Part shown: positions 4,421-30,556 of the stretch, in pieces
How positions within the stretch are numbered: the first letter of the stretch is position 1
Layout of the letters: each line of letters begins with the position of its first letter
Virus record (IMG/VR): IMGVR_UViG_3300031772_002551
Location: 1 to 31,911 of that record
Reading direction: 5' to 3' (one strand)
Length of the DNA: 31,911 nt
Origin: a virus
Position numbers and translations under genes: made by a program
Notes under the pieces: generated by a model
What the model was told of the DNA's origin: nothing
Database searches by the model: none
Seen by the model: only the letters and a program-made list of their open reading frames with translations

Positions 4421-5047
4421 ATGGCCGAGCTGGGTCCGTGGCTGCGCTGCTCCGGTTGTGGCTGGCAACCTGTCGGGTCATTCTGGGCGGCACCTTCTCA
4501 GCGGCGCGGTTATGCGCAGCTCTGCAAGGCGTGCTCGACAAAGGCGAAAAAGGAATGGGCGCACCGCTCCGGTTACTGCCGCGCATTCGCGCGCCACAGG
4601 CCGCCGTCGCCGGATGGTGGGCAGTTCTTCTGCATGGGTCGGTGCGGGCTATGGCAGCCGCGCGCCGCGTTCTACCGGCATGCTGGGCGGCGTGACGGCG
4701 TACATCTGTACTGTCGGCCTTGCGAAGCCATCCGTGACCGCGAGTGGAACGCTAGGCGCGGCGTCCAAGAACGGGTGCATGTGCGTGGCGAGCGTTGCGA
4801 GTGCGGGCGTCGCAAGAAGGAGGCGCTCGCGTGCTTGCGCTGCCGCGCGATGGATGGTGAAGGCACAGCATCGATCCTCGTGTCTGCACTCCGACAGGCC
4901 GGCAGCTCGACGCTCGCGCAGCTCGTCGAGCTGACCGGCTACACCGACCGGCACATCCTGCGTGAGATCGCCAAGGCTGCTTCGCTGTTCGTCCGGCGGG
5001 AAGTGGAAGCCGATGGTTCGATGTGCGTGCTGTGGGGGCTGGCTTGA
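4421..5047 (+). CDS. Multi-zinc-finger protein with C-terminal winged helix
   Basis: The protein has two related CxxC...CxxC units: CSGCG...CKAC near the N-terminus, and a second around the CRPC motif containing FYRHAGRRDGVHLYCRPC. A third Cys group (CECGRR...CLRC) follows, then a C-terminal helix-turn-helix (LAQLVELTGYTDRHILREI). The repeated C..C, Phe, Gly, C..C pattern is common in small phage zinc-finger proteins whose function is unknown; DNA binding is likely. It sits between helicase and primase, so a role in replication or replication control is plausible. I chose ATG 4421, right before the first finger; a GTG at 4373 overlapping the dnaB stop would add 16 mostly hydrophobic residues and is the main alternative. 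No good Shine-Dalgarno sequence is visible for either. Confidence 0.65.
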   Translation: MAELGPWLRCSGCGWQPVGSFWAAPSQRRGYAQLCKACSTKAKKEWAHRSGYCRAFARHRPPSPDGGQFFCMGRCGLWQPRAAFYRHAGRRDGVHLYCRPCEAIRDREWNARRGVQERVHVRGERCECGRRKKEALACLRCRAMDGEGTASILVSALRQAGSSTLAQLVELTGYTDRHILREIAKAASLFVRREVEADGSMCVLWGLA

Positions 5048-5925
5048 GCGGCGACGTTCACCGGCTGGTGCTTGAGGCGCTGCGCAGCGCAGGGCGCGCC
5101 GCGCCGAGTGGGTGGTTTCGTGTCCACTGCCCGGTCTGCGAGATCGCCACAGGCAAACCGGACAAGCGGCGGTCGCTCGGCATCAAGCCCCCGTTCTACC
5201 GCTGCTGGAAGTGCGATGCGAAGGGCCGGTTGCCCGACGATATGCTCGACGGGCTGGACACTGCGCCGGTGCCGGAGAAGGATGGGCCGCCACCGAACCT
5301 GGGACCGCCCGAGGGCTTCGTGTCACTGGCCGACCCGGAGGGACGAGAGGCGCTCTCGCTCGCGCCAGCGCGTGACTACCTGCTCGGGCGCAACGTCGGG
5401 CCGGACATGTGGTCGGCGGCCAGCATCGGGGCGTGTGCGTTCGGCCGGCACTACGGGCGCGTGATCGTACCGGTGCTGGACATGCAGGGTGGCTGGGTCG
5501 GCTGGGTTGGTCGTGCGTGGGAGAAGCGCGCCGAGCAGCCCTACCTCTACCCGCCCGGCATGAACCGCGGCGAGGTGCTGTACCACCACGGCGCGCTGCT
5601 GCTGGAGACGGACGAGCCGGTCATCGTGGTTGAGGGCGTAATGGATGCCATCGCGCTGTGGCCGCGCGCGGTCGCACTGCTGGGCAAGGCGAGCGAGTGG
5701 CAGGTGCAGGAGCTGCTTGCCGCGCCGCGCCCGGTCTGCGTGATCCTCGACGGCGACGCTTGGGCGGAAGGCTGGGCGCTTGCGATGCGCCTGCGCCTGG
5801 AAGGACAGCGCGCCGGCTCGGTGCGCCTCGGGCCAAGGGTTGATCCCGACGAGGTGCCGCGCGCGTGGTTGGAGGAGCAGGCGCTCGCGAGCCTGGAGAA
5901 CGCAAACGTCACACCTATCGGGTAA
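5044..5925 (+). CDS. DNA primase (CHC2-type zinc finger plus TOPRIM)
   Basis: The N-terminal zinc-binding region has CPVC at residues 29-32 and CWKC at 54-57. A TOPRIM domain follows with VVEGVMDA (catalytic Glu197) and ILDGDA (Asp236, Asp238), the metal-binding acidic residues. At 293 residues it is a compact DnaG-like primase lacking a C-terminal helicase-binding domain. It would synthesise RNA primers for lagging-strand replication together with the DnaB encoded upstream. TTG 5044 overlaps the TGA of the zinc-finger gene (TTGA) and has a GGGGG Shine-Dalgarno-like run just upstream; an in-frame GTG at 5023 is an alternative start. The stop TAA lies inside the CGGGTAAGAC element that precedes the next gene. 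Confidence 0.88.
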   Translation: MSGDVHRLVLEALRSAGRAAPSGWFRVHCPVCEIATGKPDKRRSLGIKPPFYRCWKCDAKGRLPDDMLDGLDTAPVPEKDGPPPNLGPPEGFVSLADPEGREALSLAPARDYLLGRNVGPDMWSAASIGACAFGRHYGRVIVPVLDMQGGWVGWVGRAWEKRAEQPYLYPPGMNRGEVLYHHGALLLETDEPVIVVEGVMDAIALWPRAVALLGKASEWQVQELLAAPRPVCVILDGDAWAEGWALAMRLRLEGQRAGSVRLGPRVDPDEVPRAWLEEQALASLENANVTPIG

Positions 5926-5937: not shown

Positions 5938-6633
5938 ATGGCGATCACAAAGCTGCACTCGTTCGAGGCCGATGCCGAAGTGCTCGGCCGCATCCACATG
6001 GTTCACTTTCAGGATGAGGAGCTGACCATCATCGGGCTCTCGTTGGAGGATGCGCATCGCGTGTTGGACGCGCTCTCGCTCGGCTCACTGGTGGCTGTCG
6101 CTGTTCCGCACGGCGAGCAGGCTGAACGCTACACGCCGATGCCGCACCGGAACGGCAACGTCCACCATGAGGAGCCACACCCCGCGGTCATGGCCGGCGC
6201 GCCGCTGCCGGAGATCGTGACCACGCCTGCGCCGGTCGAGCAGGTCGAGGCCGAGTTTGCTGACGCTTCGATGCCGGCTGGGCCGAGCGCCAAGCTGCCG
6301 GAGGATGATGATCCGTTCGGTCCCGCGCCCGACCCGCTGCCGACCTGGGCCGGCGGCACTGCGCCGAACCCGCCGCTGGTCCCGCCGACAAGCCGCGCGC
6401 CTGCACCGGCCGGTGAAGCTGGCGACCTGCCTGACGAGCTGTCGAAGGCCAAGACGGTCGTCGGCGCGCTGCACGCGCTGGCGCTGCTCAAGGGGTGCCA
6501 CGAGATCGAGGTGTTGATTGTCGAGGCCACGAAGCTGAAGGACCAAGTGCCGGCGCTGCGTGTGGTGGTCAACCTGGAGGACCGCATCCGGCGCACCGTC
6601 GAGGCGCACCCCGAGAAGGTGTGGCCGGCCTGA
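5938..6633 (+). CDS. Unknown protein with Pro-rich linker between two small domains
   Basis: I do not recognise this 231-residue protein. Residues 1-60 form a small mixed domain (MAITKLHSFEADAEVLG...). Residues about 65-165 are a low-complexity linker rich in Pro, Ala, Glu and Asp, with DDDPFGPAPDPLP. Residues about 170-231 are helical (KAKTVVGALHALALLKGCHEIEVLIVEATKL). The start ATG 5938 has a strong GGAGGG site. It lies between primase and polymerase, suggesting a replisome accessory role, but no catalytic motif is visible. The C-terminal segment resembles a protein-protein interaction module; that is a guess. Confidence 0.6.
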   Translation: MAITKLHSFEADAEVLGRIHMVHFQDEELTIIGLSLEDAHRVLDALSLGSLVAVAVPHGEQAERYTPMPHRNGNVHHEEPHPAVMAGAPLPEIVTTPAPVEQVEAEFADASMPAGPSAKLPEDDDPFGPAPDPLPTWAGGTAPNPPLVPPTSRAPAPAGEAGDLPDELSKAKTVVGALHALALLKGCHEIEVLIVEATKLKDQVPALRVVVNLEDRIRRTVEAHPEKVWPA

Positions 6634-10606: not shown

Positions 10607-10711
10607 CCTGGCGCGTTGCCGCCTCCATTGCGGTGACGAGTGGTAACCAGTGTGGTCCCGGCTGGCGGGAATACGGGGCGCTTTTCTTTCGCGGTCGCAC
10701 CGGAGGACACG
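10607..10711 (+). promoter_or_regulatory. recA leader region with short palindromes
   Basis: The 105-bp gap contains TGGT-A-ACCA and, further on, TCCCG-GCTGG-CGGGA (10656-10670). A T-rich CTTTTCTTT follows about 12 nt later, too far for a standard terminator. No LexA-type box and no -35/-10 pair is evident. It may hold a regulatory site for recA; evidence is weak. Confidence 0.3.
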
Positions 10712-11713
10712 ATGGCTCGTGATGACGTAGCGCGCGTGCTTGACGTAGTACGCAAGGGGCTCGGCAAGGATCTCGCTGCGACGTTGCAGCGGCTAGGCGA
10801 TACCGAGATACAGCCGGTGGACGTGGTGAGCACGGGGTCAATGGCGCTCGACCATGCGCTCGGTGTCGGCGGCTTCCCGCTCGGGCGTATCGTGGAGGTG
10901 TACGGTCCTGAGTCCAGCGGCAAGACCACGCTGGCCCTGCATGCGATGGCCGAGGCGCAGAAGCGCGGGTTGGTCTGCGGCTTCGTCGATGCTGAGCATG
11001 CGCTCGACGTGGGCTACGCCAAGGCGCTCGGCGTGGTCACCGACGACCTTCTGTTGTCGCAACCCGACAACGGCGAGCAGGGGCTCGACATGGTGGAGCG
11101 GCTGATCGAAGCCGGGGCGGGCGTGGTCGTGGTCGACTCGGTGGCGGCGCTTGTGCCCAAGGCCGAGATCGACGGCGACATGGGCGACGCGCACATGGGG
11201 CTTCAGGCTCGGCTGATGTCGCAGGCCATGCGCAAGCTGACCGGCGTGACGTTCAAGTCCAACGCGCTGGTCATCTTCATCAACCAGATCCGCATGAAGA
11301 TCGGCGTGCTCTACGGCAGCCCGGAGACGACAAGCGGCGGCAACGCGCTCAAGTTCTACGCCAGCGTCCGCATCGACGTGCGCCGCATCGGCAAGGTCGG
11401 TGAGGACAAGGTTACGACCGGCGTCCACACGCGGGCCAAGGTGGTCAAGAACAAGCTGGCCCCGCCGTTTCGTGAGGCCGAGTTCGACATAACCTTTGGC
11501 AAGGGCATCGACCGGGACCTGGACCTGCTGGTCGTGGCCGAGGCGCTGGAGGTGGTCGACAAGGCCGGGTCGTGGTACTCGTTCGCCGGGGAGAAGCTGG
11601 CGCAGGGGCGTGAGGCGGTTGGTGCCGTGCTGGCCGGCAACCCGGAGCTGCGCGCCAAGTTGGAGGCGGCTGTGCGCGAGCGCGTGCGCAAGAAGCCTAC
11701 GGCTGCTGCATGA
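10712..11713 (+). CDS. recA: RecA recombinase
   Basis: 333 residues. Walker A is GPESSGKTT at about residues 65-73. VDAEHALD, the Walker [22 protein letters not shown], the L2 region [19 protein letters not shown] with [10 protein letters not shown], and the R-R-I-G segment are all standard for RecA. The protein forms filaments on ssDNA and catalyses strand exchange, probably with the SSB and possible mediator encoded just upstream. It ends soon after the core, with a short basic C-terminus rather than the long acidic tail of bacterial RecA. ATG 10712 is preceded by GGAGG at 10702-10706; an upstream in-frame GTG at 10640 would add 24 residues and lacks support. The stop overlaps the next start (ATGA). 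Confidence 0.95.
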
Positions 11714-16871: not shown

Positions 16872-17902
16872 GCTTCACGGTAGTCAGCTTATTCGCCGGC
16901 TGTGGCGGCTCGTCGCTCGGGTACAAAATGGCTGGAGGTGACGTGCGGTTGGCTGTCGAGTGGGATGACCACGCCGTCGCTTGCTACCAAGGGAACTTCC
17001 CGGCCACGCCGATCCACCACGGTGACGTGGCTGCGCTCATGCCGGAGGACGTACTCACGCGCGCCGGGCTTCAAGTTGGAGAGCTGGACGTACTCGATGG
17101 GTCGCCGCCGTGCCAAGGCTTCTCGACTTCAGGCAGTCGCCAGATCGATGACCCGCGCAACTCGCTATTCCGTGAGTTCGTTCGGCTACTCCGCGGACTA
17201 CGCCCGCGCGCGTTCGTGATGGAGAACGTGGGCGGCATGGTGCGTGGGAAGATGCGGCTCGTGTTCGCCGAGGCGCTGCGTGAGCTTCGCGCGAGCGGCT
17301 ACGCCGTGCGGTGCCGCCTTCTCAACGCTTGGTGGTACGGCGTCCCGCAGAGCAGGCAGCGTGTCTTCTTCATCGGTGCGCGTGATGACCTTGGTATTGA
17401 CCCGACGCATCCGGTCCCTGAGCGCGATACGCCGATCACGGCGCAGGAGGCGTTCACTGGTTTAGTTGAGACAGATGACGCGACCCGCCTGAGTTCGCAC
17501 GCTCTGCATATGTGGAGCCAGACGCTCCCCGGCTTCACCTTCAAAAAGGGGCATTCGAATCATACAGCGTGGCTCAACTGGAAGAAGATGCACCCCGATC
17601 AGCCGCCCCCCGCGAGGTTGCCAAACTCGTGGTTCAACTGGGCTAAGTTGCACCCCAACCGTCCGTCACCAACGCTATCGAAGACGATGACGCTGACCCA
17701 TTGGGCCGCGCCGCGACTACTATCCGTATCCGAGTGCTTGCGTATTTCCTCGTTCCCCGACTCCTTTGCGCTCTCGATGCCGGGCTCGACTCACGCGAAG
17801 TACGCGCGCATCGGCAACAGCGTGCCTCCGTTGCTCGCGCGCGCAGTCGCGGCGCACGTTCGTGACACTATCTTGACGCGCGCAAGCGTGCGCGCCGCGT
17901 AG
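16868..17902 (+). CDS. DNA (cytosine-5) methyltransferase
   Basis: 344 residues with motif I SLFAGCGGSSLG, motif IV GSPPCQGFS (catalytic Cys82), motif VI MENVGG, motif VIII QSRQRVFFIG, and the late motifs RPSPTL and IGNSVPP. It transfers methyl from SAM to cytosine C5. The target region contains a tandem duplicate of WxNWxKxHPxxPxP before motif IX. The gene has TTA leucine codons (LFAG and TGLV regions) that are otherwise rare here, and looks less GC-rich than its neighbours, suggesting recent acquisition. GTG 16868 overlaps the ParB-domain gene stop (GTGA); an extended start at 16835 is unlikely. No restriction partner is visible, so it is probably an orphan anti-restriction enzyme. Confidence 0.93.
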   Translation: MSFTVVSLFAGCGGSSLGYKMAGGDVRLAVEWDDHAVACYQGNFPATPIHHGDVAALMPEDVLTRAGLQVGELDVLDGSPPCQGFSTSGSRQIDDPRNSLFREFVRLLRGLRPRAFVMENVGGMVRGKMRLVFAEALRELRASGYAVRCRLLNAWWYGVPQSRQRVFFIGARDDLGIDPTHPVPERDTPITAQEAFTGLVETDDATRLSSHALHMWSQTLPGFTFKKGHSNHTAWLNWKKMHPDQPPPARLPNSWFNWAKLHPNRPSPTLSKTMTLTHWAAPRLLSVSECLRISSFPDSFALSMPGSTHAKYARIGNSVPPLLARAVAAHVRDTILTRASVRAA

Positions 17903-17914
17903 AAGCCCCGCGCG

Positions 17915-17932
17915 CGGGCAAGACGAGGAACG
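17915..17932 (+). promoter_or_regulatory. CGGGYAAGAC element, copy 3, with RBS
   Basis: CGGGCAAGAC at 17915-17924 is followed by GAGGA as the ribosome binding site of the gene starting at ATG 17933. Confidence 0.5.
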
Positions 17933-18250
17933 ATGAGCCAGGATACCTACGCACTCTGCTGCGTCTGCGGGGAGTCGACGCGCCACCGTATCGGCGGTGA
18001 GTCGGTGTGTCGTGCGCGGGCTTGTCGCGTGTCCGTGCTTGGCACGAACGAAGCCGACGCTGACTCACGCGCCTACCTGACCGGGCACGACGCAGATGAG
18101 GACGGCATCGGCGATCACACGCCACTGCCCGCGCGCTGCACACCCTTGCTGAACGCGAGCATCAACCTGCCCGATCTTGACTGCACCTGTAACCCGTCGC
18201 TGTCACACAATGGGCGCTGCGTGAACTGCGATGGGCTGGTGGACGAATGA
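17933..18250 (+). CDS. Small zinc-motif protein, unknown function
   Basis: 105 residues with two Cys clusters: CCVCG with CRARAC near the N-terminus, and CTCNPSLSHNGRCVNC near the C-terminus, separated by an acidic stretch (DADEDGIGD). These look like two zinc-binding sites. No enzyme motif is visible. It has its own ribosome binding site next to the CGGGCAAGAC element, and its stop overlaps the dcd start (ATGA), so it heads a small dCTP deaminase/dTMP kinase operon segment. Confidence 0.65.
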   Translation: MSQDTYALCCVCGESTRHRIGGESVCRARACRVSVLGTNEADADSRAYLTGHDADEDGIGDHTPLPARCTPLLNASINLPDLDCTCNPSLSHNGRCVNCDGLVDE

Positions 18251-18798
18251 TCCTCTCAGACGCCGACATCAGGCGCGAGCACGCGAATGGCTCCATCGTC
18301 ATCGAGCCGTTCCGCGCGGACGCGCTCGGCCCCAACAGCTACGACGTTCATCTCGGGCACACACTGCTCTACTACCAGCACGAGTACCTCGACGCGCGCG
18401 TCAACAACCCGGTGATCCGCATCTCGCTCGGGACCGCCGGCTTCGTGATGAAGCCGGGCCTGCTCTACCTAGCTGCGACGGAGGAGTACACGGAGACGCA
18501 CGCGCACGTTCCCTACCTTGACGGCAAGAGCAGCATCGGTCGGCTGGGCATCTTCATCCACGCGACAGCAGGCCGCGGTGACATCGGCTTCTGTGGGCAC
18601 TGGACGATGGAGCTGAGCTGCATCCAGCCGGTGAAAATCTATGCCGGCATGCCCATCGGCCAGCTCACCTACCACGTCCCGGCCTCGCTGCCTTCGGTCG
18701 ACTACGGCAAGCGCGCGCAGTCGAAGTACGGTGGCAACCGGAACCCCGAGCCGCAGCCGAGCGCGATGTGGCGCAACTTCACCAAGGAGAAGCCGTGA
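18247..18798 (+). CDS. dcd: dCTP deaminase (Dcd/DUT family)
   Basis: 183 residues. The core reads LDGKSSIGRLGIFIHATAG then GFCGHWTMELS, matching the Dcd signature with Glu122 as the likely catalytic base. The enzyme deaminates dCTP to dUTP; bifunctional members also release pyrophosphate to give dUMP directly. Which type this is cannot be decided by eye. Either way it feeds dUMP to ThyX. ATG 18247 overlaps the upstream stop and its own stop overlaps the dTMP kinase start (GTGA). Confidence 0.9.
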   Translation: MILSDADIRREHANGSIVIEPFRADALGPNSYDVHLGHTLLYYQHEYLDARVNNPVIRISLGTAGFVMKPGLLYLAATEEYTETHAHVPYLDGKSSIGRLGIFIHATAGRGDIGFCGHWTMELSCIQPVKIYAGMPIGQLTYHVPASLPSVDYGKRAQSKYGGNRNPEPQPSAMWRNFTKEKP

Positions 18799-19397
18799 CT
18801 CCGTACATTTGGTTCGAGGGCATGGACGGTTCCGGCAAGTCGTCGCTATGCCGGGCGGTGAGCGACGCGCTGTCGACGCACGGGCGCGCGCACGCACGCA
18901 TCGCGTTCCCTGGTCGGCACTCGATCATCGGCTCACTCATTCGCGACGTGTTCGACGGCAAGGTGGTCATCGACCCGAGTGCGATGCTGTGGCTGTTCGC
19001 TGCCGACGCACGCGACTGCGAGGCGCGCATCCGCCAGCACATCGCCGACGGTGCCGCCGTGCTCTGCGACCGACATACCGTGTTCAGCGCGCGCATCTAT
19101 CAGACGCGCGAGCACGGGATGGCTGCGGTGCGCGCGGTGCAAGACGCAGCGCGCTTGTCGATGCCTGACAGGATCTACATGCTCGACGTGCCCGCCGAGG
19201 TTGCGCTGGAGCGGCGCGCGGCGCGGCAGGAGAAGCGCAACGAGCTGTACGAGCCGGAGCAACTGGCCGAGGTCGAGCAGCAGCGCGCGGCCTACCGCAA
19301 CGTGGCCGAGGAGTTTCCGCAGGCGTGTATCCTCGACGGCCGGTACTCGCCGGCCGCGCTGCTTGCACATGTGCTCGACGACCTCGGGATTGGTTAA
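18795..19397 (+). CDS. tmk: dTMP (thymidylate) kinase
   Basis: 200 residues. P-loop EGMDGSGKSS at residues 8-17; FPGR; the DR motif CDRHTVFSARIYQ; and a late lid segment RRAARQEKRNELYEPEQL. It phosphorylates dTMP to dTDP. It completes, with Dcd and ThyX, a phage dTTP supply pathway. GTG 18795 is favoured because it overlaps the dcd stop and has AAGGAGA upstream; an in-frame start at 18768 would overlap dcd by 31 bp. The stop TAA overlaps the next ATG (TAATG). Confidence 0.9.
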   Translation: MTPYIWFEGMDGSGKSSLCRAVSDALSTHGRAHARIAFPGRHSIIGSLIRDVFDGKVVIDPSAMLWLFAADARDCEARIRQHIADGAAVLCDRHTVFSARIYQTREHGMAAVRAVQDAARLSMPDRIYMLDVPAEVALERRAARQEKRNELYEPEQLAEVEQQRAAYRNVAEEFPQACILDGRYSPAALLAHVLDDLGIG

Positions 19398-19642
19398 TGG
19401 GGCGCGGTGACGGGATGCGTCTGCGTCGCAGCGCACACGATCTTGCGGCGGCACCACCACCACCACATCCGGACGATGCTGCGCTGCTGGTGCAGGCCGA
19501 GCGTGCGCTGCTGGACATGGCGCGCCGACTCGCGATGCACACCCAACACGCCGACGCATGCGCGACCGCGCGCGCCATCGCCGAGCGGCTTCGTGACCGG
19601 GCCGCGGTCGCACCGGCACCGGCTGGCACCGTCGAGAAGTAG
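19397..19642 (+). CDS. Small helical protein, unknown
   Basis: 81 residues. A basic N-terminus (GRGDGMRLRRSAHDL) and a PPPP run are followed by one long amphipathic helix (ALLVQAERALLDMARRLAM and onward). No recognisable family. ATG 19397 overlaps the tmk stop in TAATG, and the stop is directly followed by an intrinsic terminator, so it is the last gene of the replication/nucleotide operon. Confidence 0.55.
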   Translation: MGRGDGMRLRRSAHDLAAAPPPPHPDDAALLVQAERALLDMARRLAMHTQHADACATARAIAERLRDRAAVAPAPAGTVEK

Positions 19643-19660
19643 GCGCGGGCCGCGCTTTTT
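19643..19660 (+). terminator. Intrinsic (rho-independent) terminator
   Basis: GCGCG at 19643-19647, GGC loop, CGCGC at 19651-19655, then TTTTT at 19656-19660: a perfect 5-bp GC stem with U-tract directly after the stop codon of the preceding gene. It closes the long upstream transcription unit. Confidence 0.85.
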
Positions 19661-19690
19661 CGTTAGTGGTTACGTGTGCTTACGAAACCA

Positions 19691-19739
19691 TAAAAAACAT
19701 GAAAAACATCGTTGACATTAATCCCATAAGGACTATGAT
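19691..19739 (+). promoter_or_regulatory. Strong sigma70-type promoter with A-rich upstream element
   Basis: TTGACA (-35) at 19712-19717, a 16-bp spacer, and TATGAT (-10) at 19734-19739. The 20 bp upstream are A-rich (TAAAAAACATGAAAAACATC), like an UP element, and stand out sharply from the GC-rich surroundings. Transcription would start near 19746 and drive the genes from 19776. Its near-consensus form suggests a strong early promoter read by the host RNA polymerase. Confidence 0.85.
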
Positions 19740-19743
19740 TGAT

Positions 19744-19766
19744 CTTGCTGGCGATTGACCAGCGAG
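19744..19766 (+). promoter_or_regulatory. Inverted repeat at the transcription start, candidate operator
   Basis: CTTGCTGG at 19744-19751 and CCAGCGAG at 19759-19766 are complementary at 7 of 8 positions across a 7-bp spacer. The site covers the expected +1 of the promoter and the right arm touches the ribosome binding site GAGGG. It could be a repressor operator or a hairpin in the mRNA leader that masks the RBS. Confidence 0.5.
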
Positions 19767-19775
19767 GGAACGACG

Positions 19776-20222
19776 ATGACGATGCGTACTGACTGCCACC
19801 GCCAGACCGCCCGCTATCTCGCCGCAGCGATCGCCGCCCTCGGGCAGGGCGCGGAAATCACCGACGAGGCCGCCCTCGTCGCCAGCCTGGCGCAGGAGTG
19901 CGACCGGCTGGAGGACCAGATCTGCCGCGACGCCGACGAGGGCGCGCGCCTCCTGCAGCGCACGGCGCAGCGCCTCGCCGCCGGCGGATGGGAGGGCAAC
20001 CCCATGACCTGCAGCGTCTTCAACGGCATCTCCGACGGGCTGGTCGCCTTGAAGGCGAAGGCCGAGGCGCTGCGCGCGATGGTCCGCGTCGCCGGCGGCC
20101 GCGATGCGCGTGACCGCTTTGACGAGTCGCTGGAGGCGCGCCGCGCCGCCGATCAGGCGGCCGCCGCTGCTGCCGAACAGTCCGTGATCGAGGCCGCGCA
20201 GGCCAGCAAGGCGGTGCGCTAG
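19776..20222 (+). CDS. Helical protein, unknown, first gene of the promoter-driven unit
   Basis: 148 residues, Ala-rich and largely helical, with a central GGWEGNPMTCSVFNGISDGL segment between two helical blocks. No known motif. The preferred start is ATG 19776, with GAGGG upstream; TTG 19755 in the same frame lies inside the operator-like repeat and is less likely. As the first gene after a near-consensus promoter it is probably expressed early. Confidence 0.65.
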   Translation: MTMRTDCHRQTARYLAAAIAALGQGAEITDEAALVASLAQECDRLEDQICRDADEGARLLQRTAQRLAAGGWEGNPMTCSVFNGISDGLVALKAKAEALRAMVRVAGGRDARDRFDESLEARRAADQAAAAAAEQSVIEAAQASKAVR

Positions 20223-20223
20223 C

Positions 20224-20886
20224 ATGAGCACACTGCATACCGCCTATCTCGCTGCCGTCGAGGCCGCGCGGATCGCCGAGCAGGCGTGGATGGACGGCGA
20301 CAGTGCCACCCAGGAGGATCTCACGCACCCCGCTCGCATCGCCACCGATGCTGCCGTCGAGGCCGCGCGGATCGCCGAGCAGGCGTGGATGGAGTCAGAC
20401 GAGCCGCGTGAGTGGGGACTCTACGAGGACGGCGACTGCTACGCGACTCACTGGGGAACACTGGAGGAGGCCATGGCGGCGGCGCGGTGCAACATCGATG
20501 CGGCCAACTACGAGGTGACCCAGACGATCTGGATCGACTACCGAGTGGTATGCAAGGAGTCTGGCGAAAAGGACGGTGGCCTCAAGCAGCTCGACCCCCC
20601 GGAGCCTGACTGCGCCAGCGGTCACGATCATGACTGGTGCGCGCCACACGAGGTCGTGGGTGGGTGCGAGAGCAACCCCGGTGTCCAAGGCCATGGCGGC
20701 GGCGTGGTGATCACGGATGTCTGCTCGCACTGCGGATGCTACCGCGTGACCGATACGTGGGCACAGCGCCCGGACACTGGGCAGCAGGGACTCACGTCTG
20801 TCGAGTACCGCGACGCCGATGACGCGTCTGCGGCGTGGGTCGGGGCGGAGTCCGAGGCCGTGCTCGCCACCACGGAGGTGCGCTAG
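20224..20886 (+). CDS. Unknown protein with perfect internal repeat and C-terminal zinc motif
   Basis: 220 residues. The peptide AAVEAARIAEQAWM occurs twice near the N-terminus, encoded by an exact 44-bp direct repeat (20251-20294, 20350-20393). A central region (WGLYEDGDCYATHWGTLEEAM) follows. Towards the C-terminus there is CASGHDHDWCAPH and then VCSHCGCYRVTDTW, two Cys/His clusters likely to bind zinc. No function is recognised. ATG 20224 follows the previous stop closely, and its stop overlaps the next GTG. Confidence 0.65.
   Translation: MSTLHTAYLAAVEAARIAEQAWMDGDSATQEDLTHPARIATDAAVEAARIAEQAWMESDEPREWGLYEDGDCYATHWGTLEEAMAAARCNIDAANYEVTQTIWIDYRVVCKESGEKDGGLKQLDPPEPDCASGHDHDWCAPHEVVGGCESNPGVQGHGGGVVITDVCSHCGCYRVTDTWAQRPDTGQQGLTSVEYRDADDASAAWVGAESEAVLATTEVR
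20251..20393 (+). repeat. 44-bp perfect direct repeat
   Basis: The 44 bp at 20251-20294 recur exactly at 20350-20393. The 99-bp offset is 33 codons, so the gene stays in frame. The rest of the two units is not similar. The complete identity suggests a recent duplication or gene conversion. Confidence 0.9.
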
Positions 20887-21161
20887 TGCGCGACCACTAC
20901 CGGCTGCGGCTGCCCGACGGCAGGACGCGCACCACGACCGTCGACGTACAGGCGTGGATCCCTGACCCGCGGGTGCTCGACGAGGTGCCGGCCGAGCAAC
21001 GGCTCGACCTGGCGATCGACTACGCCGAGGCAGCCGACGCGCTCCAGTCAGCCGCCCATTCCAGCGACGAGGAGGTCAGTGACTGCTGCCAGTGCGAGTG
21101 CTGGGTCACCCATCTCGACCAGGCCATGCTCGGACACCCGGCGCATCAGCGGGCGAGGTAA
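20886..21161 (+). CDS. Small protein of unknown function
   Basis: 91 residues: an N-terminal beta-rich segment (HYRLRLPDGRTRTTTVDVQAW), a helical middle (LDLAIDYAEAADALQSAAH) and a C-terminal CCQCECW cluster that may bind metal with later His residues. GTG 20886 overlaps the TAG of the preceding gene; a start at 20835 would overlap it by about 50 bp and is disfavoured. Unknown family. Confidence 0.55.
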   Translation: MRDHYRLRLPDGRTRTTTVDVQAWIPDPRVLDEVPAEQRLDLAIDYAEAADALQSAAHSSDEEVSDCCQCECWVTHLDQAMLGHPAHQRAR

Positions 21162-21163
21162 CC

Positions 21164-21253
21164 ATGCCGACCGACGCGCCCCGCGAGCACCTGTCCGAGA
21201 CGGGCACGGTCTATGTGACGATGGCCGCGACCGCGGCGCAGGCGGCGGTGTGA
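21164..21253 (+). CDS. 29-residue small ORF
   Basis: ATG 21164 follows GAGG and lies 2 bp after the previous stop; its TGA at 21251-21253 overlaps the next ATG (TGATG). The peptide begins MPTDAPREHLSETGTVYVTM and ends in an Ala-rich helix-like stretch. Its tight fit between neighbours, with a plausible ribosome binding site, argues that it is translated. Function is unknown. Confidence 0.45.
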   Translation: MPTDAPREHLSETGTVYVTMAATAAQAAV

Positions 21254-21663
21254 TGCGAACCAACGACGAGAGCAAGCTGCCACGGTGGGCGCAGCAAGAA
21301 ATGACCCGGCTGCGCGACCGGCTACGCGAGGACGTGGCGTACTGGAAGGCCAAGGCGCACCAGGCCACCACGCCGGGGGAGTCGGACACCATCCTCGTGG
21401 ATGGCATGGCCGAGCATGGCTTGCCGGCCGGCAGCCTCGTGCGCTTCATGCTGTGGTGCCTCGAACCGGAGGGCGCGCACACGCAGACCTTCATCGACGT
21501 GCGGGTCAAGGATGACCGACTGGAGCTGACGGCCGGTGACGTGGTCCCGGTCATCCGGCCGGCCGCGCCTACCATCTCGGGTGGCCTGGACGTAACTGGC
21601 TACCCGCCCGCGATGCAGGTCGAGCCACGCGCATCCAACACCATCTACGTTCGGGTGCGCTGA
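21253..21663 (+). CDS. Phage accessory protein with coiled-coil N-terminus
   Basis: 136 residues. The N-terminus (KLPRWAQQEMTRLRDRLRED) is a coiled-coil-like helix seen in many small phage proteins of unknown function. A beta-rich C-terminal half follows, ending PRASNTIYVRVR. The codons from about residue 104 to 120 fall within the 52-bp sequence that also occurs, in another frame, in the gene at 23734. ATG 21253 overlaps the preceding stop; the stop overlaps the next ATG. Confidence 0.65.
   Translation: MRTNDESKLPRWAQQEMTRLRDRLREDVAYWKAKAHQATTPGESDTILVDGMAEHGLPAGSLVRFMLWCLEPEGAHTQTFIDVRVKDDRLELTAGDVVPVIRPAAPTISGGLDVTGYPPAMQVEPRASNTIYVRVR
21562..21613 (+). repeat. 52-bp perfect direct repeat, copy 1
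   Basis: An exact 52-bp match to 23867-23918, same orientation, 2305 bp apart. Here it is read as PTISGGLDVTGYPPA. Flanking sequences on both sides are unrelated, so the identity is confined to this block. Confidence 0.95.
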
Positions 21664-22724
21664 TGGTCGCGGACAGCGCCAAGCCGATCCCCGAACGCGC
21701 GATGGGCTGCCTGCTCGGCGTGTCCGTGGGCGACCAGCTCGGCTACCCCATCGAGTTCCAGCGCGGACCCTTCCCGCCTGCGCCACCGGCCGCGGTCGGG
21801 CCGCACCATTCCGACGACACGCAGATGACCCTGTTCGTGGCCGAGGGGCTAGCGTACCGGGCCACGCTGCGCGGGCAAGCTGCCGCCATGCTGCGCTGGT
21901 ACTCGACGCAAGACCTGGCGCGCGTGGGCTCGCCGTTCTACTTCGGCGCGCTCGATGACGACCGCATCGTGCCCGGCCTGTCGCGCCGGCTGCTCGATGA
22001 CTCGCGTCTGCACGTCGACCGTGCGCCGGGCTCGACCTGCCTGATGTCCCTGGCCGCGCTCGCGCTGCGCGCCGACGGCCGACACCCGGCGGCCAACGAC
22101 TCGGCTGGCTGTGGCGTGGTCATGCGTTCAGCACCCTACGGCCTGGTGGCCGGGCTGCCGCGTCACGCGGCGTTCGACTTCGCCTGCGCATCCGGGCAGC
22201 TCACGCACGGCAACGTGCGCGGCTGGCTGCCGGGCGGGTTCCTGGCTGCGACTGTGTGGGGGCTGGTGCGTGGGGAGCCGCTGCCGGACGCGCTGCGCCT
22301 GGCCGAGCACCTGTGCGCTGAGCGAGCTGGCGACCAGCACGCGCTGCTTGGGCTGCTGAACGGGGCGGTCGCCTTGGGCGCAGCCACCGGGCCGGGCGGG
22401 TTCCTGGGCTCGGACGCGACCGCGGCCGACTTGTCCAGGCAGCTTGGTGGAGGCTGGGTGGGTGACCAGGCGCTCGCCTGGGGCATCGCCGCTGCCGCCT
22501 CGTGCTGGTGCGGGGGCGAGCTTCCAAGCCCGCAGCGGGTTGGCCTGGCGCTGTGGCGGGCCGCTGCGCACGCGGGCGACTCGGACAGCACGGCGTCGAT
22601 AGCCGGTGCCTTGATCGGAGCCATGGCCGGTGTGGACTGCCTACCGCCTGTCTGGGTGGCCGGAGTCGAGATGGGGCTGGAGCTGCGCGGGCTGGCCGGC
22701 GCGCTGTCGGGAGTGACCAGGTGA
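21663..22724 (+). CDS. ADP-ribosylglycohydrolase (DraG/ARH family)
   Basis: 353 residues. Family landmarks are all present: GCLLGVSVGDQLG at the N-terminus, SDDTQM at residues 50-55, GCGVVMRSAPYGL in the middle, and HAGDSDSTASIAGALIGAMAG starting at His303, with the acidic residues D51, D52, D306 and D308 that normally bind two Mg ions. These enzymes remove ADP-ribose from proteins or nucleic acids. In a phage this could reverse host ADP-ribosylating defence toxins or control modification of host targets. The target is not inferable from sequence. ATG 21663 overlaps the previous stop. The gene lies between the two copies of the 52-bp repeat. Confidence 0.9.
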   Translation: MVADSAKPIPERAMGCLLGVSVGDQLGYPIEFQRGPFPPAPPAAVGPHHSDDTQMTLFVAEGLAYRATLRGQAAAMLRWYSTQDLARVGSPFYFGALDDDRIVPGLSRRLLDDSRLHVDRAPGSTCLMSLAALALRADGRHPAANDSAGCGVVMRSAPYGLVAGLPRHAAFDFACASGQLTHGNVRGWLPGGFLAATVWGLVRGEPLPDALRLAEHLCAERAGDQHALLGLLNGAVALGAATGPGGFLGSDATAADLSRQLGGGWVGDQALAWGIAAAASCWCGGELPSPQRVGLALWRAAAHAGDSDSTASIAGALIGAMAGVDCLPPVWVAGVEMGLELRGLAGALSGVTR

Positions 22725-23559: not shown

Positions 23560-23675
23560 CCACGCGGTCCTGGCTGGTCTGCCTATCCGACGTACTCGCC
23601 ACGCTCGCCGGTTACGCGCTCGTTCAAGCTGGTGTCCGTTGTGCTGAGGTCGTGCTCATTGAGCACCGCGGTTGA
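23556..23675 (+). CDS. 39-residue hydrophobic small ORF
   Basis: GTG 23556 overlaps the preceding TGA (GTGA), the same junction used throughout the operon. The peptide has a single hydrophobic stretch, WLVCLSDVLATLAGYALVQA, long enough to cross the membrane. An inverted repeat GTGCTC-ATT-GAGCAC (23652-23666) lies in its last codons. It may be a small membrane protein or simply an unread frame. Confidence 0.4.
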   Translation: MTTRSWLVCLSDVLATLAGYALVQAGVRCAEVVLIEHRG

Positions 23676-23733
23676 CCTTCCCGTCTGATGCTGTCAGCAT
23701 AAATCCCTGCGGTCCCACAAGCCGCTGAAATCC
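23652..23733 (+). promoter_or_regulatory. Junction region with two inverted repeats before the packaging genes
   Basis: GTGCTC-ATT-GAGCAC (23652-23666) and the perfect 13-bp palindrome ATGCTG-T-CAGCAT (23688-23700) lie in the gap before the packaging module. TTGACC at 23672-23677 resembles a -35, but no good -10 stands at 16-18 bp. The site is a candidate operator or late-gene control region. Confidence 0.35.
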
Positions 23734-24600
23734 ATGGGTCAAAGAGCAATCACCAGAGAGAACTACGACGCCATGCTGGCAGCCTTCCGGTCCATAGCTG
23801 CCGAAGGCAAGCAGATGAACTGGGAGGAAGCCGCAAGAAGGGCTGGCTGCGACAGCCGAACTGCCCGCCGCGCCTACCATCTCGGGTGGCCTGGACGTAA
23901 CTGGCTACCCGCCCGCGAGGTGCTGGCGGATGAGCAGTTCCACGCACGCGCTGCACGCATGGAGCTGGAGATCGCTGGGGTCATGGAGCAGCTCGGTCTG
24001 CTCACGGTCGAGCAGACCGAAGCCGCTGCCGCGCTGGCCGCGGCACGCCAGGCCGCGACCGACAAGCTGGAGCAGGCCGAGGTCGGTGCGCGCAGGCGCA
24101 TCGCCGACCTGTTCGAGAAGGCGCACATGGACGGGATGGAGCAGGCGGCGGATGAGGCGCTGCTCTCCAAGTCCGCACGCAAGAACGCGATGAACGCGCA
24201 GGGCTTCGTGGCGATGGCCTGGGGCACGGCCAAGGTGCTCGCCGAGAAGATCGGCAAGATGGTCCGCGAAGACAACCTGTCGCAGAAGAACATGCTGATG
24301 CTCATGAAGGAGCTGGTGCGTGCGACCCGCGAGGTGAACATGGCCTCACGCCTGGCCATCGAGCTGGAGCGGCTGCGCGTGGGCGACCCGACCGAGATCG
24401 TGGGCGTGAAGCTGGAGCCACCGTCCATCGAGGAAGCTGCGCGCGACATCGAGCACGCCGCTGAGCTGCTGGCCATGGCGCGCCGTCGGCATCCGCTGGC
24501 GCACCCGACCACGGGTGACACGGCGGTCGTCGTGGTGGACGGCGCTGGCGAAGGGCATGGCAGTAACGGCAACGGGAACGGAAACGGGCAAGTCCACTAG
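23734..24600 (+). CDS. HTH DNA-binding protein, possible small terminase subunit
   Basis: 288 residues. An N-terminal helix-turn-helix (NWEEAARRAGCDSRTARRAYHLGWP) is followed by long Ala-rich helices, a Met-rich helical block (MLMLMKELVRATREVNM) and a C-terminal Gly-Asn repeat tail. The GWP motif after the HTH, and the position two genes before the large terminase, fit a DNA-recognition role in packaging. The HTH coding region contains copy 2 of the 52-bp repeat. ATG 23734 has no evident Shine-Dalgarno sequence, which leaves the start uncertain. Could also be a regulator of the late genes. Confidence 0.6.
   Translation: MGQRAITRENYDAMLAAFRSIAAEGKQMNWEEAARRAGCDSRTARRAYHLGWPGRNWLPAREVLADEQFHARAARMELEIAGVMEQLGLLTVEQTEAAAALAAARQAATDKLEQAEVGARRRIADLFEKAHMDGMEQAADEALLSKSARKNAMNAQGFVAMAWGTAKVLAEKIGKMVREDNLSQKNMLMLMKELVRATREVNMASRLAIELERLRVGDPTEIVGVKLEPPSIEEAARDIEHAAELLAMARRRHPLAHPTTGDTAVVVVDGAGEGHGSNGNGNGNGQVH
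23867..23918 (+). repeat. 52-bp perfect direct repeat, copy 2
   Basis: Identical to 21562-21613. Here it is read as RRAYHLGWPGRNWLPAR, the second half of the HTH region, in a different frame from copy 1. Confidence 0.95.
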
Positions 24601-28155: not shown

Positions 28156-30065
28156 GCCAGCCGGACGCCTGGAGAAACATGGCCGGAGCCATCGACTACA
28201 AAGTCTACGGCGACCGCATCGGCCGAATGGGCATGTCCCCGCGCCAGATGGAGATGAACCGCCGCTGGGCGGTCTACTGCTGCGCCAGCTACGACGCGCG
28301 CACCTGCGACTGGGACGGCACCAAGCGCGCCGACTCTGTGGAGCGCGAGGCCATCGCGCAGCAGGGCTTCATCCCGCCCGGCTTCTACGACGCGGGCGGG
28401 CAGATGGCCGACCTGCCGCTCAAGTTCCGCCGCCCAAGCGCGCCCTACCATCTCGGCAAGGTCATCACCGACCGCTTCACCGGGCTCCTGTTCAGCGAGC
28501 GTCGGCACCCACGCCTCGGGTCGACCGACCCGGTGACCGACGACTTCGCTGACGCGCTCGCCGAGGCCGCTCGCCTCTGGCCGGCGCTGATCAAGGCGCG
28601 TACCTACGGCGGTGCCACGGGTTCAGTTTGCACCAGCTTCCAGTTCTCCGCGGGCAAGCCTGTCGTCGAGGTCCATGACCCGCGGTGGGTGTTCCCCGAG
28701 TTCGAGGACCGCATCACGCACAAGCTGGCCAGCTTCGAGAAGCGGTACATGTACCCGCGCGAGATCCGCGACCCACAGACCGGGCGCTGGATCACGACGT
28801 GGTGGTGGTATCGCCGCGTGGTCGACTCGGCGCGCGACGTGGTGTTCGCACCTGTGCCGGTCGGCCGCGGCGAGGAGCCGCAGTGGATCGAGCTGTCGGT
28901 GGCTGAGCATGGGCTTGGCTACTGCCCTGCGGTCTGGACACAGAACCTTCCAGTCGATGACGACATCGACGGTGAGCCGGACATCCATGGGGTCTACGAC
29001 CTGCTCGAATCCATCGACACGCTGCTGTCCCAGGCACAGCGCGGCGTGGTCGCGAACTGCGACCCGACTGCCGTGCTCGAAGGCGTGGGCGACCTGGAGA
29101 TCCCGCAGCTTCGCAAGGGCAGCGGCAACGCCATCAAGCTGCCGCAGGGTACGTTTCGCTACGCCGAGATCACCGGCAGCGGGCCGCTGGCTGCACGCGA
29201 GATGGTCGGCGAGCTGCGTGGCTACGCGCTGGAGGTCGCGCAGTGCGTTCTGGAGCAGCCGGACATGGGGCAGGCTACGGCGACCGAGGTCAACAAGCGG
29301 TACGAGTCGATGCTGGCCAAGGCCGACGTGCTGCGCGAGCAGTACGGGCAGCGGCTCATTGCACCGCTCATGGACATGATGGTCACCGCCGCCACGCGCC
29401 TCGGCAAGAGTCGCGTCGAGGGTGACAGCCTGGTACGTTACGCTATCAAGTTGCCGCCGCGTATGGCCAAGGACGGCACGCGCGTTGAGCGCAAGCCGCC
29501 CGAGAACCCCGAAGCCGTGACGGTCCATTGGCCCGGCTACTTCGACACGTCCATCCAAGATGCGCAGACCGCGGCGACCGCCGTGGGTGCAGCCAAGGCA
29601 ACCGGCGTGCTCGACGACGAGAACGCAGCCAAGTTCCTGGCCCCTTACTTCCGGGTCGAGGACGTGGATGCCATGCTTGTCGCAGCGCGTCGTGAGTCGG
29701 GCATGTCCCAGGCTTCGGTCGACTCCGACCTGATGCGCCTGAACGGCGTGAGCGAGGACGACATGGGCGCGGGCGCGCGCCCGGCCGCAGCCGGTGCCAA
29801 CCTGCCGCCCGATGCGCAGGTGGCTTCCGCGTCACCGACTAACGCGGGCGTGCCGCTCGGCACCAAGTTCTTCCAGTACGAGATCGAGGGCGGGCTCGTG
29901 ACCATCAACGAGGTGCGCGCGTCCAAGGGGATGGGGCCGAAGGTCGATGGCGAGCTGACCTTGCCCGAGTACCGCGCCAAGTATCCGGCGGTGTTCGCTC
30001 CGATGGACGATTCTGGTGGGCCATCCATGAAAACCGGCGGGGAATCGGGCAAGCCTGGTGAGTGA
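28152..30065 (+). CDS. Portal protein
   Basis: 637 residues. The order of an acidic/aromatic N-terminal region, an HDPRWVFPEF core, a long Leu/Gln helical stretch (LLESIDTLLSQAQRG), and the QATATEVNKRYESMLAKADVLREQYGQRL helix is that of phage portal proteins (the dodecameric DNA gate at the head vertex). It is placed two to three genes after the large terminase, as expected. The C-terminal 100 residues are less conserved-looking and contain Pro/Ala linkers. ATG 28152 overlaps the previous stop. Confidence rests on layout and overall pattern. Confidence 0.82.
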   Translation: MSQPDAWRNMAGAIDYKVYGDRIGRMGMSPRQMEMNRRWAVYCCASYDARTCDWDGTKRADSVEREAIAQQGFIPPGFYDAGGQMADLPLKFRRPSAPYHLGKVITDRFTGLLFSERRHPRLGSTDPVTDDFADALAEAARLWPALIKARTYGGATGSVCTSFQFSAGKPVVEVHDPRWVFPEFEDRITHKLASFEKRYMYPREIRDPQTGRWITTWWWYRRVVDSARDVVFAPVPVGRGEEPQWIELSVAEHGLGYCPAVWTQNLPVDDDIDGEPDIHGVYDLLESIDTLLSQAQRGVVANCDPTAVLEGVGDLEIPQLRKGSGNAIKLPQGTFRYAEITGSGPLAAREMVGELRGYALEVAQCVLEQPDMGQATATEVNKRYESMLAKADVLREQYGQRLIAPLMDMMVTAATRLGKSRVEGDSLVRYAIKLPPRMAKDGTRVERKPPENPEAVTVHWPGYFDTSIQDAQTAATAVGAAKATGVLDDENAAKFLAPYFRVEDVDAMLVAARRESGMSQASVDSDLMRLNGVSEDDMGAGARPAAAGANLPPDAQVASASPTNAGVPLGTKFFQYEIEGGLVTINEVRASKGMGPKVDGELTLPEYRAKYPAVFAPMDDSGGPSMKTGGESGKPGE

Positions 30066-30556
30066 TGGGAAGACGCAGGCGCGCAGCCGAGGGCTGGCTC
30101 ACGGTCAGCGAGTTCGTCGAGCTGGTCGGCATCCATGGCCAGGGCAAGAACGCGGTCGACAACGCACGCGTACTGCTGGCCGAGTTCGCCTTCGAGGGTG
30201 AGGACGCCGCCATCGAGGTCGAGCGCGACGGTCGTCCGCTCACCGAGCTGGGCTTCCGTGCGGTGCCGACCGGCAGGCCGGCAGACGGGCATCGACCTGG
30301 CCTTGGCGGACTGGTCGAAATCCGCATCCGCGACCGCGCACGCTTTGACGAGGTGGTTGAGCGCATGCACGCAGCGGCCACGTTCACCGAGCTGGAGAAG
30401 CGCGCCGGTGGTGGCACCGTCACCACGTCCTTCGCGGAAGTGCTGCGCGCGCCCAAGGTGATCGACGCCATCCGCGAGAACAATATGCGTGAGGCGGTCA
30501 AGGCTGCCGGGTTCACCGAGCTGGAGAAGCGCGCTCCGGCCAAGCCGGCAACGTGA
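30065..30556 (+). CDS. Head-region protein with repeated FTELEKRA motif
   Basis: 163 residues. A basic start (MGRRRRAAEG) and an HTH-like stretch are followed by a beta segment (LVEIRIRDRARFDEVVERM) and two copies of FTELEKRA, encoded by an identical 23-bp sequence around 30384 and 30512. The function is unknown; the position right after the portal suggests a head or connector accessory. ATG 30065 overlaps the portal stop (TGATG); GTG 30062 is an alternative. Confidence 0.6.
   Translation: MGRRRRAAEGWLTVSEFVELVGIHGQGKNAVDNARVLLAEFAFEGEDAAIEVERDGRPLTELGFRAVPTGRPADGHRPGLGGLVEIRIRDRARFDEVVERMHAAATFTELEKRAGGGTVTTSFAEVLRAPKVIDAIRENNMREAVKAAGFTELEKRAPAKPAT

Follow-up and report, generated by a model that had tools for sequence, protein, structure and literature searches.

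The 133-bp gap at 19643-19775 of this viral sequence is most readily explained as a terminator-promoter expression site, native and probably active early, in which the payload has been exchanged, a reading that we hold at a probability of roughly two in three. The parts of the site are ordinary. What is unexpected is their apparent role as the start region of a phage gene family that is widespread and whose body has apparently been swapped out here. Throughout, the window means the whole 31,911-nt stretch that was analysed.

In our gene model, which ends at 30065 of the window and runs on the + strand throughout, the gap is exactly the non-coding interval between an 81-aa ORF and the ORF starting at 19776 (Table 1). 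Only two other gaps, 1347-1628 and 23560-23733, exceed 60 bp. The gap also contains an AT-rich island: no 100 bp of the window are richer in A and T than 19656-19755, with a GC content of 0.36, against a mean of 0.675 (sd 0.048) for 100-bp stretches of the window. Genes recognised in the window include those for a family-A DNA polymerase, ThyX and an SbcC-like protein. Rfam and tRNA searches gave no match, and a DNA search with 18700-21200 had no match in 50,697 phage records. TerL matches 141 phage records, the best 20 of which are 22.8-26.0% identical, and a prophage search for the host returned one gammaproteobacterial metagenome bin with 40% identity over part of TerL, which is too little to name a host. 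As a separate observation, the ORF at 45-1346, a helicase by its PHROG hits, is intein-like over its first part, with a Pfam Intein_splicing match that stays below cut-off. At 4799-5841 of another locus (L009), about 1 kb separates the two matching pieces of the terminase large subunit gene, as would be the case with an intein or intron.

Table 1. Features in and around the 19643-19775 gap (window coordinates).
Feature	Position	Strand	Basis
Last ORF of upstream replication/nucleotide unit, 81 aa, no assigned function, 3' of thymidylate kinase	19397..19642	+	start chosen by analyst
Intrinsic terminator, GC hairpin then TTTTT	19641..19660	+	hairpin folding, U-tail score
Imperfect dyad TGGTTACGT-N6-ACGAAACCA, putative protein-binding site	19667..19690	.	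dyad search
Two A-tracts 10 bp apart, UP-element position	19692..19706	+	sequence; position after PMC2613000
-35 element TTGACA	19712..19717	+	promoter scan
-10 element TATGAT, spacer 16	19734..19739	+	promoter scan
Dyad over predicted start site; candidate 5' mRNA hairpin or operator	19744..19766	+	folding, dyad search
Shine-Dalgarno-like GAGG, 8 nt before ATG 19776	19764..19767	+	direct reading
Retained leader, first 9 codons (MTMRTDCHR) of displaced HRPSAIIP-family gene	19776..19803	+	comparison with L004 and family
Chimeric 148-aa ORF, leader in frame with new, mostly helical body	19776..20222	+	low-confidence model
Exchanged cassette; L004 has a single 300-aa family gene here	19804..21221	+	L004 alignment
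220-aa ORF; residues 123-206 68% identical to a stretch of L045	20224..20886	+	
91-aa ORF, no assigned function	20886..21161	+	start chosen inside longer ORF
29-aa ORF ending in displaced gene's last 9 codons (AATAAQAAV)	21164..21253	+	
DUF7239 protein	21253..21663	+	PF23886 (scanned as 21229-21663)
ADP-ribosylglycohydrolase	21663..22724	+	PF03747

At the upstream edge of the gap, a GC hairpin is followed directly by a U-tract, as expected of an intrinsic terminator. The stem (19642-19656, loop of 3) is touched by the stop codon of the 81-aa ORF, and the TTTTT at 19656-19660 is the only one on the + strand of the window. The U-tail score of this site, 4.12, is the highest among 25 + strand candidates, the runner-up, with 4.08, lying at 10682, close to where the RecA ORF begins. 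The hairpin energy is ordinary. An earlier sequence-only reading of this region had called the terminator perfect; the hairpin and its TTTTT tract are indeed there, but the word overstates the case, because the stem is short and its energy of -8.5 kcal/mol is matched by 58 of 200 shuffles. In a sister contig introduced below (L004), one C of the stem is a T, the hairpin is weaker (-5.9), and over 53 nt a different fold wins. The true start of RecA may lie further on than the ORF start that the terminator-like site at 10682 adjoins (10640-10712).

The promoter that follows has hexamers near the sigma70 consensus within the usual 16-18 bp of each other. Scored at 11/12, with a spacer of 16 rather than 17, TTGACA-16-TATGAT is the sole + strand site of at least 9/12 under the scanner's rules, in scans that jointly cover the window. 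When the 133-bp gap was shuffled by dinucleotides, 11/12 was reached in 2 of 2000 shuffles, and thus AT-richness alone does not explain the promoter. Upstream of it lie A-tracts at 19692-19697, the window's only + strand AAAAAA, and at 19702-19706, in the position that the relevant part of PMC2613000 gives for UP elements. The predicted transcription start is at about 19746-19747. Within IMG/VR the exact promoter pattern recurs in the sister contig alone, and no 11/12 site occurs in the other 37 loci that share TerL. The results agree with the sequence-only reading on the AT-rich island, on the near-consensus promoter with A-rich upstream sequence, and on the coupling of a terminator to a strong promoter, here of sigma70 type and at a boundary behind replication and nucleotide genes.

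An AT-rich island that is unique in the window and carries short A-rich repeats (19685-19709) could instead be a replication origin or an attachment site, with no promoter function. We regard this as very improbable, as no clear turn in GC skew occurs there, the DnaA box TTATNCACA is absent from the window, no integrase was recognised among the genes examined, and the layout of promoter and ribosome-binding site is complete. An AT island at 6306 of a further locus (L005) was considered as a positional analogue and rejected; it has a TTGACA but a poor -10 element, and lies between divergent ORFs.

The inverted repeat over +1 described in the sequence-only reading is also present, with 7 of 8 bases pairing between 19744-19751 and 19759-19766. 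Folded as RNA from 19744, it reaches -12.5 kcal/mol, a value equalled by 0 of 200 shuffles; for a start at 19747 the figure is -8.1 kcal/mol (12 of 200), and for the wider 19740-19800 segment -14.1 kcal/mol (23 of 200). A role as a hairpin at the 5' end of the mRNA is possible for this dyad. The same reading had gone further and proposed a switch with an operator. One dyad does lie across the predicted start and another, which that reading had not mentioned, upstream of the -35 element, so that either or both could be operators for a phage or host repressor. With arms of 8 bp, three dyad calls fall in the gap and two of these overlap (shuffling P = 0.037; P = 0.085 for 9-bp arms), which makes its dyads only mildly unexpected and suggestive only: such calls average 0.94 per 133 bp across the window, and the gap is no denser than the window at large. 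The two dyads are unlike in sequence, and no second copy was listed for the upstream dyad at fewer than 4 mismatches or for the +1 dyad at fewer than 3, which leaves the site without the repeated similar dyads of a repressor-operator system. No repressor or regulator gene was recognised among the subset of ORFs scanned in this partial genome, although one could sit outside the 31.9 kb, and the +1 dyad is equally an RNA hairpin. Repressor control of the site is accordingly improbable in our view, and the terms switch and operator are not supported.

A comparison for what the promoter drives comes from the sister contig, IMG/VR contig 3300031999_004053 (L004). It is 99.6% identical to the window over 17508-19810 (2303 bp), loses register after 19810 and regains it at 21222 with 99.0% identity. 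The promoter, the untranslated leader and the first nine codons are common to both. Beyond these codons, L004 encodes one 300-aa protein of a family marked by RTDxHRPSAIIPxDY, whereas in the window they are fused to an unrelated ORF, which makes a 148-aa ORF, and ORFs of 220, 91 and 29 aa follow. We place the exchange junctions at 19803/19804 and 21221/21222. With the family protein as tblastn query against the window, residues 1-11 hit the leader (E 0.038), and the four other hits have E values of at least 0.7. The L004 gene is a full HRPSAIIP-family member by alignment; the ORF at 19776 shares the first nine codons only. As only the leader matches the family in the window, the window represents the derived state, with the old promoter and start and a new body. 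Most likely, the family gene kept nine codons at each end and lost everything between them to about 1.4 kb of other ORFs, in what looks like a recent exchange. Neither the swap nor the retained leader had been part of the sequence-only reading.

The comparison involves two contigs, the window and L004, both of them IMG/VR virus records and both compared as assembled sequence. A wrong join in either one could therefore produce the difference in payload beside a promoter site that is nonetheless real. Such an assembly chimera seems to us an improbable source of the pattern: the two junctions are clean and both lie in coding frame with the ends of the same gene, the L004 version aligns with the family over its full length, and the chimeric ORF of the window retains a phage-like codon composition, with a third-position GC of 0.91. 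Ten records were searched for the family gene, and it is present in that of L004 alone. The two contigs also differ at 30413-30499, where 85 bp in the window and 52 bp in L004 separate matching blocks.

The payload itself yielded few clues. Ten proteins had no match in a defence library, the 148- and 220-aa ORFs had NCBIfam hits that fell well short of the cut-offs and were treated as noise, and the structure model of the 148-aa ORF (pLDDT 64.5) was too low in confidence for a fold search. The payload may nevertheless have an anti-defence role.

The displaced gene belongs to a family whose hallmarks are the N-terminus RTDxHRPSAIIPxDY, cysteine motifs and a C-terminal domain with relatives among proteins annotated as ssDNA-binding. 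In Pseudomonas phage pf16, ARTDIHRPSAIIPEDY is encoded close to the end of the record, at a start that lacks annotation and is preceded by TTTACA-17-TATAAT; the family gene of this phage appears to span the ends of the deposited linear record, which would leave the N-terminus unannotated. R-D-HRPSAI-P is common to 14 aligned members, L004 included. Because pf16 and these aligned members share the N-terminal region of the leader, we assign the leader to the L004 gene. A motif scan found 18 stretches, L004 and pf16 among them, all of which read as family N-termini; the scan required HRPSA..P, and members found with another pattern show the same region with variants. A profile-guided scan raised the number to 42 family loci, and the stretches fetched from family contigs range from 33% to 69% GC.

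A query with the C-terminal part of one member (L051) found matching proteins in 406 phage records; among the best 40 of these matches most are hypothetical and three are annotated as ssDNA-binding. A relative in S-CBWM1, considered by its annotation, was set aside; the match lacks the N-terminus. Pfam gave no match above cut-off in 14 members, NCBIfam none for the L004 member, and the PHROG matches of the family are without function. Folding the 300-aa L004 protein alone produced no usable model (pLDDT 33.8). In the open-licence literature we found no paper containing the family motif strings, although protein strings seldom appear in text, and none on conserved-promoter cassettes. The family is a candidate for host takeover or DNA handling.

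Promoters were surveyed upstream of the family members as well. We clustered the 260-bp upstream regions of the 42 loci into 35 non-redundant ones, which include the index contig L004 (as L066) and leave out seven redundant regions. Sigma70-like sites of at least 11/12, 10/12 and 9/12 occur in 6, 12 and 19 of the 35 regions, compared with shuffle means of 0.05, 1.28 and 8.43 and maxima over 100 shuffles of 1, 5 and 15. For other ORFs in the same loci the counts are 15, 30 and 83 of 306 (Fisher p 0.013, 0.00027 and 0.0013), these controls taking the longest start, so that their upstream windows may be slightly misplaced. Without L004, 5, 11 and 18 of 34 regions remain (p 0.038, 0.0008 and 0.0024). 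If in addition two loci (L084/L085) are merged and L086, where the promoter hit coincides in part with a terminator hairpin and is likely to be false, is counted as having none, the counts become 5, 9 and 16 of 33 (p 0.034, 0.007 and 0.011). No site of even 9/12 precedes the gene in 16 of the 35 regions, and the promoter is thus common, not universal, before family genes. That 10% of neighbouring ORFs have sites of at least 10/12 indicates that these regions are promoter-rich.

Other elements of the layout recur as well. A run of at least 5 A within 30 bp before the -35 element is found in 6 of the 12 regions scoring at least 10/12 (5 of 11 without L004), a set that includes L004 and the doubtful L086, compared with 6.9% of random 30-mers. 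Terminators precede 7 of the 35 family genes and 16 of the 306 other ORFs (p 0.005; 6 of 34 and p 0.015 with L084/L085 merged), the hairpin of L004 itself falling below the threshold of this survey. In L084 and L085 a strong terminator is followed by a promoter and then by the family gene, and in L083 a 12/12 promoter lies within an AT-rich stretch. These results link the promoter of one phage record with a gene family whose members occur across viral contigs.

Downstream of the cassette, the DUF7239 and ADP-ribosylglycohydrolase genes are followed at 23734-24600 by a gene that directly precedes TerL and matched no Pfam or PHROG family; its label TerS-like comes from its position and from relatives in other loci. 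TerL and portal genes come after this block. The sequence-only reading saw at the gap the start of an accessory, probably early, module. A variable block does begin at the promoter, its first gene differing between near-identical contigs, but its accessory nature is weakly supported: eight tested block genes had no hit in the other 37 TerL-sharing loci (up to 10 kb upstream of TerL in each), a weak test because the upstream genes dcm and tmk likewise have no hits there. Early timing is suggested by the near-consensus host-type promoter and by promoters of the same type before relatives of the displaced gene, and we retain it as an inference.

The sequence-only reading also had the site divide the genome into two transcription units. 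No second + strand promoter was found, in line with this, but no convincing + strand terminator precedes the packaging genes, into which the transcript may run on, and another terminator-like site lies at 10682. All genes of the model lie on the + strand, and TerL and portal genes follow, so the promoter might mainly start a packaging and structural operon, with the first genes as passengers. This is unlikely in our judgement. Near-consensus host promoters are untypical for late phage genes, and a late promoter of another type could lie in the 174-bp gap (23560-23733) ahead of the gene that comes before TerL. That gap has no + strand sigma70-like site of 9/12 and is a candidate late promoter or packaging site. 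Independently of this, a 56-bp direct repeat (21558-21613 and 23863-23918, 98% identical) flanks the ADP-ribosylglycohydrolase block, with one copy in the DUF7239 ORF and the other, in a different reading frame, in the gene before TerL. Both copies are also in L004, and the repeat may be a sign that the block was inserted or duplicated, or that a packaging site was copied.

We then propose a model for a native expression site with an exchanged payload. The intrinsic terminator would end transcription coming from the replication and nucleotide genes, and the near-consensus sigma70-type promoter, aided by the two A-tracts, would start a new transcript at about the predicted position, with the host RNA polymerase in unmodified form and probably in the early phase of infection. 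This transcript would carry a short 5' hairpin and then immediately a ribosome-binding site, an arrangement from which strong expression is expected. The site would be native to the widespread gene family, a member of which L004 still carries there. With the body of the family gene replaced, the old promoter and translation start would now serve the new payload, presumably to the benefit of the phage.

It is tempting to extend this model, tentatively, to the family as a whole: strong-promoter sites of an early-gene family, found across very different phages, might serve as landing places for new genes. We consider this generalisation possible but doubtful. If true, payloads would be plugged in behind a promoter, a ribosome-binding site and first codons and made at once on infection, and such sites could lead to uncharacterised phage genes with host-takeover or anti-defence functions. 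Should the family prove to be immediate-early, the promoter and leader would provide a sequence handle for variable early genes.

Several known systems resemble the site in part. The SAS/ESAS repeats of cluster K mycobacteriophages, as far as PMC3203893 describes them, combine inverted repeats with conserved sequence near start codons and occur many times per genome, whereas the site here is single and promoter-centred. In archaeal viruses, strong early promoters have been used to find anti-defence genes, according to the portion of PMC11065993 that treats them; the likeness lies in a conserved strong promoter as a marker of immediate-early genes, the difference in a sigma70-type site in a tailed phage with no anti-defence match in the defence library.

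The promoter-early stem-loop (PeSL) cassettes of T4-type phages come closer. In the accounts that PMC4503421 and PMC3950731 give in part, a host-like early promoter adjoins a stem-loop terminator between genes and is linked to exchange of neighbouring genes. The same layout of stem-loop and presumed early promoter between genes is found here. PeSLs exist in many copies in gene-shuffling regions, whereas this site is single-copy in the 31.9-kb window, the next-best matches being 12-19 nt long, and the family-A DNA polymerase, ThyX and SbcC-like genes do not suggest a T4-type phage. The site would work like a PeSL, but because repetition is not seen in the window and T4 kinship is conjectural, we do not file it as a PeSL member. 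It also differs in its exchange boundary, which falls nine codons into the coding sequence.

Phage morons, accessory genes that often have their own transcription signals as set out in part of PMC7067206, likewise show added genes after a terminator and behind a promoter of their own. No terminator closing the insert was found here. A further difference from morons is that one promoter here serves either of two payloads and retains the opening codons of the gene that was displaced.
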